DNA from: Alphaproteobacteria bacterium
Lineage (GTDB): Bacteria; Pseudomonadota; Alphaproteobacteria; Ferrovibrionales; Ferrovibrionaceae
NCBI GenBank assembly: GCA_017307375.1
Contig: JAFKFH010000003.1
Coordinates: forward strand, 310,001 to 374,000
Length of the DNA stretch: 64,000 bases
Direction: 5' to 3'
Shown here: in pieces, positions 367-5,275 of the stretch
How the letters are laid out: each line of letters starts with the position of its first letter
Numbering within the stretch: position 1 is the first letter of the stretch
Position numbers and translations under genes: made by a program
The notes under the pieces: generated by a model
The model's input: only the letters and a program-made list of their open reading frames with translations
Database searches by the model: none
What the model was told of the DNA's origin: nothing

Positions 367-476
367 AAAAAGGCCGCTCTCCGATCAGAGCGACCCATGA
401 CGTCAGGACGATGTCAGGGATGTCGCCCGCTTTACGCGGGCCACCAACGACAGGAAAGGTGCACGGACATCGTCAT
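367..476 (-). promoter_or_regulatory. Tryptophan attenuator (leader RNA) upstream of trpB
   Basis: Reading the minus strand: a 14-codon leader ORF with two adjacent TGG codons (441-446); a hairpin GCCCGC-GTAAA-GCGGGC (441-425) that overlaps the leader stop; then a 9-bp terminator stem GGTCGCTCT/AGAGCGGCC (395-387 with 380-372, one G-U pair) followed by TTTTT (371-367). The 3' arm of the first hairpin continues as GGGCGAC (428-422), which can instead pair with GTCGCTC (394-388) of the terminator's 5' arm, giving a mutually exclusive antiterminator. This is the classical trp arrangement: ribosome stalling on Trp codons would favour the antiterminator. The terminator ends 60 bases before the trpB ATG. 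Confidence 0.88.
432..476 (-). CDS. trpL: trp leader peptide
   Basis: A 14-residue ORF, MTMSVHLSCRWWPA, ending in TAA, with tandem Trp codons two codons before the end. Its length and late Trp run resemble known alphaproteobacterial trp leaders such as that of Sinorhizobium meliloti. There is no ribosome-binding site upstream, and the best promoter match places the transcription start within a base or two of the ATG, so it is probably translated as a leaderless message. Its role is as the sensor of charged tRNA-Trp; the peptide may have no other function. Confidence 0.85.
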   Translation of the reverse strand: MTMSVHLSCRWWPA

Positions 477-703: not shown

Positions 704-1180
704 ATGCAGACCGAAACGTTGGCCAAGCCGGCAGCGCCGGCGCCGTTGCCCCTATCGCCCGCCGCCATGATCGCCACCGCCTTCTCGCATATCCGCGAGG
801 GCGATACCGAGTTCAGATCAGACGGACTGCGGGACTTCTTTCTCTATCGGGATCTCGGCGTTGCCGAAGCCACCAACGGCCTGGTCATCGCCCAACTGGT
901 CAAGGCGAACCTGCCGCCCGAGGAAGGCACCGGCTGGCACCGCCACGAAGCCAATTTCCATATCGTGATCATGCTGAAGGGCTGGGCCCGCTTCATGTAC
1001 GAGACCGAGGAGACGCTGGTGCAGGCGGGCGATTGCGTGCACCAGCGGCCGGGAATCGTGCACTACCTGTTCGATTATTCGCCGGACATGGAATATCTCG
1101 AAATCGTCAGCCCGGCGGATTTCACCAGCATCGACATGCCCGGACCCTGCGCCGTTCCGCCACCGACGCCGTGGGCGTGA
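704..1180 (+). CDS. Cupin-domain protein
   Basis: A 158-residue small cupin of unknown substrate. The core follows the cupin pattern: GTGWHRHEANFHIV (H79, H81, H86 as likely metal ligands) in motif 1 and the loop around H120 (PGIVHYLFDYSP) in motif 2. No signal peptide or membrane segment; the first 20 residues are a Pro/Ala-rich tail. The ATG follows AGGAGGG. It is divergent from the trp leader and convergent with ribH, ending at the start of a strong hairpin. Cupins of this type may be dioxygenases, isomerases or sensors; nothing in the neighbourhood decides. Confidence 0.85.
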   Translation: MQTETLAKPAAPAPLPLSPAAMIATAFSHIREGDTEFRSDGLRDFFLYRDLGVAEATNGLVIAQLVKANLPPEEGTGWHRHEANFHIVIMLKGWARFMYETEETLVQAGDCVHQRPGIVHYLFDYSPDMEYLEIVSPADFTSIDMPGPCAVPPPTPWA

Positions 1181-1707: not shown

Positions 1708-1804
1708 GGTCATCCTTCCAATAGGACCAGAATCAGGGCACACGGGACCAAGGGCACGCGACCGGGCGCCGTCGCAAGGACGGAGTCCGGCTGTGCTATC
1801 ACCC

Positions 1805-1957
1805 CGTTCTCTTCCATCCGGACTATGACCGTCGGCTTCGGAATCGCACCGAAATCTGCTGACCCCCGATGATCCGACGGGATCATCGAGGCGCTCGCGG
1901 GCTAGGCAATCGCTTGCCATTACCGCCGGTGGGGACTTTCACCCCGCCCTGAGAACG
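1805..1957 (-). promoter_or_regulatory. FMN riboswitch (RFN element)
   Basis: On the minus strand the conserved RFN blocks appear in order: the 5' block TCTCAGGGCGGGGTGAAA, then TCCCCACCGGCGGTAAT, GCCCGCGAGCGCC, a variable arm (CGATGATCCCG-TCGGATCATCG), GGTCAGCAGATTTCGGTG, CCGAAGCCGACGGTCATAGT and the closing GGATGGAAGAGAACG. It lies 98 bases before the ribH ATG. No T-tract hairpin was seen between aptamer and gene, so a translational expression platform (ribosome site inside a small hairpin at about 1710-1735) is more likely than termination. Confidence 0.96.
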
Positions 1958-1993
1958 TCAACATGCCGCCGGCGAATTCCGGTCGGCGTCCAG

Positions 1994-2032: not shown

Positions 2033-2959
2033 CTACTTCACCCCGGTCACGGTCAGAGTGACGCGGCGATTGGCGGCGCGGCCCTCCGGCCCGGCCTGGG
2101 CGGGCCGGGTATCGGCGAAGGCGATCGCGCGCAGCCGCGCGGCGGGCACGCCCTGCTCGATCAGCGTGCGCAGCACGGCGGTGGCACGCGCCGCCGACAA
2201 TTCCCAGTTCGAGGCGAAGCGCGCCGAGCTGATCGGCACGTCGTCGGTATGGCCCTCGACGGCGATCTGACCGTCCAGGTCGCGCAAGGTCGGGGCGAGC
2301 TTGGCGATCGCGCGCCTGCCGACCTCGGACAGTTCGGCCTGGCCGGGGGCGAACAGGACCTTTTCGCCGATGGCGATCGTCAGGTCGCGCGATGTGGCCG
2401 AGATCGCGACGTCGGGCGGCAGGCCGGCAGCCTCGAGCTTGGCGAGCAGCGCGGCATTGGCCGGCGAAATCTCGTCGCGCCGGGGCGGCGGCGGTTCGAA
2501 GAAGCGCGGCGCGGCCTCACGCGTCGCCTCGGGCCCACGCGGGGCGGGGGCGGCGACCAGCGGCTTGCCGTTGGCGGTATCGGTATCGGGATGCGGCTGG
2601 GTCGGCGGCAGCGGCAGGATGGTGCCGCCGCCTCCACCGGGCAGGATCGTGCCGCCGGCGACCGTCGCCTCGCCCTTGACCTGGCCGCGTTCCTCGGAGG
2701 CGAGGTTGAGGCCGCCCTTCAGGCTCTGGATCGCCACCATGCCGAGGAAGACGATCATCAGCACGGTGATCATGTCCATGTAGGACACGACCCAGTCCTC
2801 GGCCTCCTCCGCGCCGGGCGGCAGGTTGTTCGACAGCTTCTGCTGGTTGGCGCCCTGCTGGCGGCGGAAATTCGCCAGCATCTGCTCGGCCTCGCGGCGC
2901 GGGTCGGTGACCTGGGAATCGCGGCCGTTGCCGCTGCGCCAGTTGGTGAGGTCAGGCAC
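2033..2959 (-). CDS. motB: MotB-type stator protein (OmpA C-terminal domain)
   Basis: 308 residues. Flagellar stator subunit that anchors the ion channel to peptidoglycan. A short cytoplasmic N-terminus is followed by one TM segment (about 57-80) with the essential Asp in YMDMITVL (D62), a Pro-rich plug/linker, and an OmpA-like peptidoglycan-binding domain from about 170 to the end (VEGHTDDVPI, NWELSAARATAV, NRRVTLTV). GTG start; the first codons overlap the end of motA by 8 bases, typical of translational coupling. Other flagellar genes are not in the window. A role as a non-flagellar MotAB-like pair cannot be excluded. Confidence 0.93.
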   Translation of the reverse strand: MPDLTNWRSGNGRDSQVTDPRREAEQMLANFRRQQGANQQKLSNNLPPGAEEAEDWVVSYMDMITVLMIVFLGMVAIQSLKGGLNLASEERGQVKGEATVAGGTILPGGGGGTILPLPPTQPHPDTDTANGKPLVAAPAPRGPEATREAAPRFFEPPPPRRDEISPANAALLAKLEAAGLPPDVAISATSRDLTIAIGEKVLFAPGQAELSEVGRRAIAKLAPTLRDLDGQIAVEGHTDDVPISSARFASNWELSAARATAVLRTLIEQGVPAARLRAIAFADTRPAQAGPEGRAANRRVTLTVTGVK

Positions 2960-3782
2960 CGGCGACCTCGTCGCCGCTCTCGCGCAGCATGTGGTCGAGC
3001 GCCTCGGCCACCAGCGTCGGCGAGCGGCCGAGATGGGCCAGCACGATGCCCTGCAGCAGCACGTTGAGCATGTCGACCCGGCGGATCGTGCGCTGCTCGA
3101 GCTTGATGGCGATCGGCTTGAAGACGAGATTGGCGAGGATCAGGCCATAGAGCGTGGCGAGCATCGCCACCGCCATCGCCGTGCCGATGCGGCCGATATC
3201 GCCGGCCCCCAGTTCCTTCAGCATCCCGACCATGCCGACCAGCGTGCCGAGCAGGCCGAAGGCGGGCGCAAAGCTTGCCAGCGTCCGGAACAGCCGGGCC
3301 TGGCCGTGCTCATGCTCGATCAGCTTCTGGATGCGCCAGTTCATGATCTGCAGCGTGTCTTCGAGATTGGCGCCGTCGATGACGAATTGCAGGCCGAGCT
3401 TGAGGAACGGGCTGCCGACCCGGCGCAGCCGTTCGTCGGCGGCCTGGATGCGGCGCTCGTAGATCAGGCGCGAGACGTCGAGCAGGTCGCGGATATCGGC
3501 GTCGAGCGACTTTTCCTCGCGGAAGATCGCAAACATCGCCGCCACGGCGTTGCTGATCTCCGACCAGCGGAAGGCGATCAGCGCCACCACCGCCACCCCG
3601 CCGACGACGATGATCCCGCCGGGCAGGTTGAGGTAATAGATGGCGTCGCCTTCGTGGGTGAAGACATAGGCCAGCAGGGCCAGCGCACCCGCCACGCCGA
3701 TCCAGGTCGAGCCCATCACCCCGCCTGCGGCTGCGCGGGCGGCGGCGGGCTTGGTCTTGGTCGGGGCCTTGGCGTCGCTCAT
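2952..3782 (-). CDS. motA: MotA/TolQ/ExbB-type proton channel, stator subunit
   Basis: 276 residues, partner of MotB. Four hydrophobic segments are visible: about 22-42, 50-72, 170-190 and 200-220, the second pair holding the conserved channel-lining GLLGTLVGMVGML and MAVAMLATLYGLILANL. The large cytoplasmic loop between TM2 and TM3 would carry the charged residues that touch the rotor. A Lys/Ala-rich 20-residue N-terminal tail precedes TM1. ATG start. It begins 38 bases after the upstream cyclase stop, so the three genes may be one transcript. Confidence 0.92.
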   Translation of the reverse strand: MSDAKAPTKTKPAAARAAAGGVMGSTWIGVAGALALLAYVFTHEGDAIYYLNLPGGIIVVGGVAVVALIAFRWSEISNAVAAMFAIFREEKSLDADIRDLLDVSRLIYERRIQAADERLRRVGSPFLKLGLQFVIDGANLEDTLQIMNWRIQKLIEHEHGQARLFRTLASFAPAFGLLGTLVGMVGMLKELGAGDIGRIGTAMAVAMLATLYGLILANLVFKPIAIKLEQRTIRRVDMLNVLLQGIVLAHLGRSPTLVAEALDHMLRESGDEVAGA

Positions 3783-3820
3783 AGGTTGGGTCTACCCCCT
3801 GGCGGGCATCAGGTAAAGGT

Positions 3821-5173
3821 TCATGCGAGGCGCACGAGATCGAGCCGATGGCCGATGCCCTCGACCCGCCGGTCCGGCAGCGTCTCGGCCCCCGGGGGCG
3901 GGGTGAGACCCTGGGCGAGGGCGAGCGCATAGGTGGCCAGCGGCAGCAGCAGCGCGCAGCCTTCGACCTTGCATTGCTTGTCGAGCTTGGCGGCCAGGTT
4001 GACCGGCTCGCCGATCACCGTGATCTCGAGCCGGCTGGCATCGCCGACGGCGCCGAACACGACGGTGCCAGCCGCGACGGTCACACCGATGCGCACCGGG
4101 GCGAGGCCCGCGGCCTCGCGCTCCCCGGCCCAGGCGTCGCAGGCGGCGACGATCGCGATCGCGGCTTCGACCGCATCGGCGGCATGACGGTTGCTGGGCC
4201 GCGCCGCGCCGAAGGAAGCCAGCACCCCGTCGCCGAGGAACTTGTCGACGCTGCCGCCATGCGTGGCGATGCAGGCGACCACCCGCGACTGGTAGTCGGC
4301 CAGCAATGTCATCAGCGCGTCGGGATCCAGGGTCGCGGCCAGCCCGGTGAAACCCCTGATGTCGCAATGCAGGACCGTTGCTTCGATCGAGCGCCCCTGT
4401 CCGGGGACGATCGCGGTCTCGGTCTCGGCGATCGAGCGGGCGACCGCGGGGTCGAAGAACCGCGACAGCTCGTCGGCGGCGGCACCGTCGACGATCGCCT
4501 TGATCATCAGCCGCCGGGCCCGGGCGATGGCCAGCGCCAGGATCAGCGTGACCAGGATGATCGAGATCACCTTGTCGAATTCGGCCCCGCGCAAAATGGC
4601 GTTGGTGGTGATGTAGGCAACGTAGGAGCGGGTGATCTCCACACCCGGACTGTTCATGACGGCATAGGACAGCATGGCGAGCCATCCCACGGCGGCGGCC
4701 AAACCCGCCAGCAGCACATAGCCGACCTCGAAGCGCAGGGCGCGCAGGGCGATGAAGATGAAGACGTAGAGCAGCGTCGGCGACTTCAGGTAGAAGGCCG
4801 GCGGCTGGCCGTACTGGCGATGGAAACTCCAGATCAGCCCGAGCAGCAGGGCCATGTCGGCAATGACCGACAGGGCCAGGATCCAGCGCGGCAGGGCGTC
4901 ATGATAGGCGAGGATCAGCCGGCCGAGGCTGAAGGCGGCATAGATGGCGAGTGCCAGCGGCACCGGTGCCATCATCATGCTCTCGCCCATGAACGCTTTC
5001 GGTGCCAGGGTGTAGAGGGTGGCGAAGGTGGCGGCGAGGCCGAGCTGGACCCAGCCGATCAGCACCTCGCTCGATTGCTGCAGCCGGGCGATCGCGGCGG
5101 CGACCCGCGCGGGCGGCTGCCGGTCGGGGCGGGGTCCCAGCACGGCGCGGTCAAGTCTGGCGAACAGTGACAT
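3821..5173 (-). CDS. Membrane-bound class III adenylate/guanylate cyclase
   Basis: 450 residues from the ATG at 5173 (an upstream in-frame start at 5212 would add 13). The N-terminal half has about six TM segments with no known sensor motif. The C-terminal half is a class III cyclase domain: VLHCDIRGFT with metal-binding D271, SVDKFLGDGV with purine-site K311 and second metal-binding D315, and TVIGEPVNLAAKL with N392. The family's transition-state Arg, five residues into NLAAR, is Lys (K396) here. K311 and the Thr of TVIG suggest ATP as substrate. The first gene of a likely unit with motA and motB. Confidence 0.88.
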   Translation of the reverse strand: MSLFARLDRAVLGPRPDRQPPARVAAAIARLQQSSEVLIGWVQLGLAATFATLYTLAPKAFMGESMMMAPVPLALAIYAAFSLGRLILAYHDALPRWILALSVIADMALLLGLIWSFHRQYGQPPAFYLKSPTLLYVFIFIALRALRFEVGYVLLAGLAAAVGWLAMLSYAVMNSPGVEITRSYVAYITTNAILRGAEFDKVISIILVTLILALAIARARRLMIKAIVDGAAADELSRFFDPAVARSIAETETAIVPGQGRSIEATVLHCDIRGFTGLAATLDPDALMTLLADYQSRVVACIATHGGSVDKFLGDGVLASFGAARPSNRHAADAVEAAIAIVAACDAWAGEREAAGLAPVRIGVTVAAGTVVFGAVGDASRLEITVIGEPVNLAAKLDKQCKVEGCALLLPLATYALALAQGLTPPPGAETLPDRRVEGIGHRLDLVRLA

Positions 5174-5275
5174 CACCCGCCGATCTTGGCCCGGCCGGAC
5201 AAAACTGTACACTTCGTTCGGTCATCCCGCGCTGCTAGTCTCGCAACAACGTGTTGAGCATGCGGAGGGAATGAC

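Follow-up and report, generated by a model that had tools for sequence, protein, structure and literature searches.

A predicted tryptophan attenuator before a supernumerary trpBA pair in an alphaproteobacterial genome, with a homologue in Tistrella

The DNA directly upstream of a second trpB gene in this alphaproteobacterial genome very probably encodes a ribosome-mediated, tryptophan-dependent transcription attenuator controlling a supernumerary, horizontally acquired trpBA pair. The computed support for this reading comprises the anatomy of the leader, its folding order in silico, the second gene copy, the TrpB phylogeny, and conservation of the element in Tistrella. Coordinates refer to the window, the whole 64,000-nt stretch of DNA analyzed. 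On its minus strand, the leader ORF and the 1:2, 2:3, and 3:4 pairings can all be read directly from 476 to 367:

512–484, minus strand: candidate promoter; TTGACT 512–507, 17-nt spacer, TACCTT 489–484
476–432, minus strand: trpL leader peptide ORF; 14 codons, MTMSVHLSCRWWPA then stop, ATG at 476, TAA ending at 432
474–407, minus strand: long-range helix in the MFE fold; leader start 474–466 with 415–407
441–425, minus strand: segments 1 and 2 (1:2 hairpin); GCCCGC 441–436 / GCGGGC 430–425, loop GTAAA, spanning the stop codon
428–388, minus strand: antiterminator 2:3; GGGCGAC 428–422 pairs with GTCGCTC 394–388, 7 bp
396–367, minus strand: terminator 3:4; GGGTCGCTCT 396–387 / AGAGCGGCCT 380–371, 10 bp, then T5 371–367
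306–1, minus strand: 5′ part of trpB2; 102 of 408 codons inside the window, Shine–Dalgarno sequence GAGGAGG upstream, trpA2 following outside the window

The first-pass annotation had placed, 60 bases before trpB, a 14-codon leader containing Trp codons in tandem, together with a 1:2 hairpin, a rival 2:3 pairing, and a 3:4 terminator with T tract; every listed part was confirmed. The leader ORF reads ATG ACG ATG TCC GTG CAC CTT TCC TGT CGT TGG TGG CCC GCG TAA, with the tandem Trp codons (TGGTGG, 446–441, minus strand) near its end, and the trpB ATG at 306 (minus strand) lies 60 bases past the terminator T tract. This tract is short, being T5 in the window and TTTGTCGTTT in Tistrella, and the 3:4 hairpin is the sole site returned by a terminator scan of 300–720. 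The attenuator has a folding z-score of −3.3 to −3.6, with 0–1 of 200 shuffles equally stable. A short leader ORF in which Trp codons stand in tandem, a terminator ahead of the structural gene, and a Trp-biosynthesis gene downstream are all present, and a mutually exclusive 2:3 antiterminator, freed by a ribosome stalled on the Trp codons, is present in silico. The long-range helix, which may mask the leader start region in finished transcripts, is partly retained in one Tistrella sequence (ATGACGA/TCGTCAT) and gone in another.

Upstream of the leader, the candidate promoter matches the consensus at 8 of 12 positions, a score under the scan threshold, and places TACCTT 7 nt from the leader ATG. 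The Tistrella leaders are preceded by a like layout (TTG..., 17 nt, TACCGT, 6 nt, ATG). Transcription would be expected to start at the leader ATG or within 1–2 nt of it, which would yield a leaderless leader mRNA.

Numbered from the leader A, the Trp codons occupy nt 31–36 and the stop codon nt 43–45, and segments 1 to 4 correspond to nt 36–41, 47–55, 81–90, and 97–106. When the leader is masked as by a stalled ribosome (nt 1–46), the antiterminator is the best fold for transcripts 88–100 nt long. The geometry agrees with both outcomes: an A-site at codon 11/12 leaves nt 49–55 of segment 2 free, and segment 2 is covered once the ribosome stands on the stop codon, which leaves the terminator (−21.9 kcal/mol for nt 57–116). 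Untranslated or released RNA also folds to the terminator, and the untranslated leader holds segment 2 in the 1:2 hairpin. Once segment 4 has fully emerged, the terminator is more stable than the antiterminator even with the leader masked; antitermination would thus depend on kinetics, as it does in the textbook attenuation case.

We infer how transcription would begin, how stalling and termination would operate, and what the cell would gain, as follows. RNA polymerase would start on the leader ATG or immediately beside it, followed by a ribosome translating the 14-codon leader. If tryptophan is plentiful, this ribosome would reach the stop codon and cover segment 2, the 3:4 terminator would form, and transcription would end near 367. 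Under a shortage of charged tRNA-Trp, it would stall at codons 11–12 and cover segment 1; segment 2 would then pair with segment 3, no terminator would form, and trpB2–trpA2 would be transcribed. Without translation, the 1:2 hairpin would sequester segment 2, making termination the default. The predicted outcome is an additional tryptophan synthase, beside an un-attenuated trpFBA, under tryptophan starvation only.

The controlled genes appear complete by length and score. trpB2 has a full length of 408 codons and reaches 623 bits against TIGR00263 (cut-off 392); trpA2, directly behind it, is intact and reaches 238 bits against TIGR00262 (cut-off 102). A second trpB lies in an ordinary trpF–trpB–trpA run on contig C37, where no leader was found; trpF there overlaps the upstream gene, which is pyrF-like as judged by reading its protein. 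Among the family and class samples, two trpB matches of such strength were confined to this genome and to three genomes of Tistrella, a genus of another family. The remaining pathway genes are on contig C29, with trpE and, further along, trpG–trpD–trpC. The latter run is preceded by a Trp-rich leader candidate (...MSAMNSHILSRRWWRWHSQRPS, L038 6729–6896, plus strand) that has a TTGACA box upstream and a strong hairpin; no U-rich terminator or U tract was seen at this candidate.

These loci narrow two claims of the first-pass annotation. It had proposed that the last step of the pathway is controlled independently: the attenuator does stand before trpBA, but this trpBA is an extra copy, and because the genome also holds an ordinary trpFBA with no leader, the attenuator would govern that extra copy and not the cell's sole last step. 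It had also set trpB against trpE as the attenuated gene; trpB does lie behind the attenuator, but trpGDC has a Trp-rich leader candidate as well, so the target is better read as the extra trpBA, possibly together with the usual early-pathway target.

In those samples, the closest TrpB proteins to that of the window are the extra copies of Tistrella, 78% identical in two of its genomes. A tree of 79 TrpBs joins the window copy to the Tistrella extra copies as sisters (100/99), nested on the Rhizobiales branch among TrpBs of Bradyrhizobium, Hyphomicrobiaceae, and the like; the TrpB of the C37 trpFBA and Tistrella's own TrpB are placed elsewhere. The simplest reading of this topology is lateral acquisition of trpB2 from a Rhizobiales-like source. 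A WW leader is absent from the close Rhizobiales relatives (L041–L044, L124, L125, and L134), which have trpF upstream, so the attenuator was probably gained together with, or later than, the trpB2 transfer.

A homologous attenuator precedes the extra trpB in 3/3 Tistrella genomes; in Tistrella mobilis KA081020-065 the extra gene, leader included, is located on plasmid pTM3 (L161). The Tistrella leaders end in ...MTMLHPIFCPMQTRRWWPA or ...HPIFCPMQTRRWWPA, followed by the stop, and share the core CCCGCGTAA(A)GCGGGC and the terminator. They score 161–164 bits against the covariance model and the window scores 93 bits. Identity between window and Tistrella is ~75% over the terminator and ~22–60% in the flanks: leader, hairpins, and WW are kept across two families, the flanks are not conserved. 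No trpA was found next to the extra Tistrella trpB, and both hosts also retain an ordinary trpFBA. The extra gene appears to change frame near codon 289 in L161 6001–7229 (pTM3) and in L153, and the copies in two sister Tistrella genomes are intact; the pTM3 copy may be a target that is decaying in one Tistrella genome.

All three helices are maintained in this comparison. The 1:2 hairpin retains 6/6 core pairs in Tistrella with none varying, and the terminator keeps 8/8 pairs with one U–G/C–G change. The antiterminator, in alignment A1, keeps 7/7 pairs, among them one Watson–Crick double change, from A–U in the window to G–C in Tistrella, and another pair that varies between C–G and U–G; sliding the antiterminator partner by 1–3 columns lowers pairing to 40–62%. 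At the compensatory position, segment 3 has U or C, matched in the antiterminator by A or G of segment 2 and in the terminator by an unchanged G of segment 4; the terminator tolerates the change. One compensatory pair was reached by 151 of 500 shuffles and the alignment holds two independent lineages only, the window and Tistrella, so that this covariation gives the antiterminator suggestive support, short of statistical proof. The covariance-model check proposed by the first-pass annotation found its conserved tandem TGG and a compensatory pair, in three Tistrella genomes. Its suggestion that no conservation in close relatives would speak against the element proved misleading, since relatives in the family are without an extra trpB and conservation appears in Tistrella, of another family. 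Its central claim, a complete Trp attenuator before trpB, is backed by the anatomy, the folding order, this conservation, and the one compensatory pair.

Beyond these hosts the element was sparse. Covariance model R1, run on genome samples with strict filters, gave strong matches solely in this genome and the three Tistrella genomes among 385 alphaproteobacteria, no score higher than 34 bits in 397 genomes from the Rhizobiales-like order of genome G319, and no new match among 398 genomes of the phylum. The weak matches (25–34 bits) that turned up elsewhere in the Alphaproteobacteria and in the Rhizobiales-like order were rejected: a WW ORF was missing nearby in every case except one, unrelated, near L173. 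Beta- and gammaproteobacterial "RFVWW" leaders before trpB, which initially resembled a wide family of trpB attenuators, were likewise discarded; these ORFs overlap the 3′ end of trpF and are out-of-frame readings of the conserved TrpF DSSGG region (frames compared by eye). A blastn search of the leader against plasmids returned nothing; it misses the Tistrella plasmid copy because that copy is too diverged.

The architecture stands well above chance. A search for short ORFs that contain TGGTGG and have an intrinsic terminator within 110 nt returned one match in 114 kb of this genome, the attenuator site itself, exactly before trpB, and none in 40 Markov windows. In 1.35 Mb of compared loci, which partly overlap and contain some trpB places several times, it returned the trpB leaders of the window, of Tistrella, and of G002 (a genome of the window's family), plus two unrelated places. 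As the window contains 7 short ORFs with WW and 5 sites resembling terminators, a GC-rich terminator-like hairpin could have met a random WW ORF by accident, but their single joint occurrence in this position, its absence from the Markov windows, and the homologous element in Tistrella make such an accident extremely improbable.

Other readings accept the attenuator and question its role. Under tryptophan starvation the extra TrpB could make tryptophan from serine and free indole, with trpA2 as a passenger; isolated TrpB is able to use indole (PMC3937554), and the extra Tistrella trpB is single, with no adjacent trpA found, but in the window trpA2 is intact and directly behind trpB2, and we regard this salvage role as rather unlikely. 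It is improbable that attenuator and trpBA2 are a silent or decaying remnant of a transferred operon that is no longer relevant: the canonical trpFBA of both hosts and the apparently frame-broken T. mobilis copy on pTM3 would fit a remnant, whereas full-length window genes above their family cut-offs, and a leader, hairpins, and WW conserved over two families with unconserved flanks, would not. We also give little credence to a chiefly trans-acting leader, in which terminated RNA and leader peptide would regulate other mRNAs. The precedent is peTrpL of Sinorhizobium meliloti, likewise 14 aa and leaderless, whose leader RNA (rnTrpL) and peptide act in trans (PMC7298713), and the window leader also looks leaderless; such action would nonetheless add to cis attenuation, not replace it. 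As an extension of the preferred reading, cis control of an acquired trpBA, we tentatively consider it possible that a mobile Trp-attenuated cassette (trpL–trpB, with or without trpA) is spreading among distant Alphaproteobacteria, with a Tistrella megaplasmid as one of its carriers, and provides its recipient with a starvation-inducible extra last step beside an un-attenuated trpFBA.

The mechanism itself is already known; what is new, prior mention being possible, is the supernumerary transferred trpBA as target and the sharing of the element between distant genera. An attenuated extra trpBA is not described in the papers found, a set that does not include the trp attenuator compilations by Vitreschak (2004) and Merino (2008). 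The Escherichia coli trp leader (RF00513) has the same four-segment logic and tandem Trp codons, but its target is the whole trp operon rather than trpBA alone, and the window leader is without an evident Shine–Dalgarno sequence. The RF00513 Trp_leader model (gathering score 41 bits) had no match in this genome, and no relevant Rfam match was found at the site, where searches at E up to 10 gave chance matches only; with no match above the gathering score, the attenuator is not assigned to RF00513. The trpL–trpE(G) leader of S. meliloti shares the 14-codon length, consecutive Trp codons, alternative hairpins, and an alphaproteobacterial host, and has its ATG at the transcript 5′ end, a feature only predicted for the window (PMC7298713). 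It controls the first step, trpE(G) being the only attenuated one of three trp operons (PMC7298713), whereas the window target is an extra, transferred trpBA. In Chlamydia, a putative trpL was proposed between trpR and trpBA, and so likewise directly before trpBA (PMC3937554), but that trpBA does not duplicate a complete trpFBA elsewhere in the genome; the C. trachomatis candidate, with 59 codons and no consecutive Trp codons, was judged a poor attenuator, unvalidated and atypical (PMC7755916).

Within the window's family, G002 also carries a WW leader (MLTVRPNPFSWWRAPMGPPFR) and a terminator directly before trpB (L023 1325–1470/L154). Its trpB, unlike that of the window, is single, 64% identical, and heads a trpB–trpA–trpD run; its leader and hairpins have no recognizable homology to those of the window, and its fold z-score is only −0.9. 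The G002 leader is apparently independent of the window attenuator. In the window, ribosome-mediated attenuation appears fitted to a redundant, transferred last-step enzyme instead of the first, committed step. Should the attenuator work in this way, the two copies would divide the labor, with trpFBA steady and trpBA2 induced by starvation, and the shared element suggests that leader and gene are able to stay together in distant hosts.

Further genes adjoin this end of the window. A cupin-domain gene (704–1180, plus strand) is divergent from trpBA2 and lies between it and a ribH-like lumazine synthase gene (minus strand), upstream of which is an FMN riboswitch (1802–1960, minus strand; RF00050, 107 bits). 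At 2033–5212 (minus strand), translations show adjacent look-alikes of MotB/OmpA-type and MotA-type proteins and a membrane-bound nucleotide cyclase.
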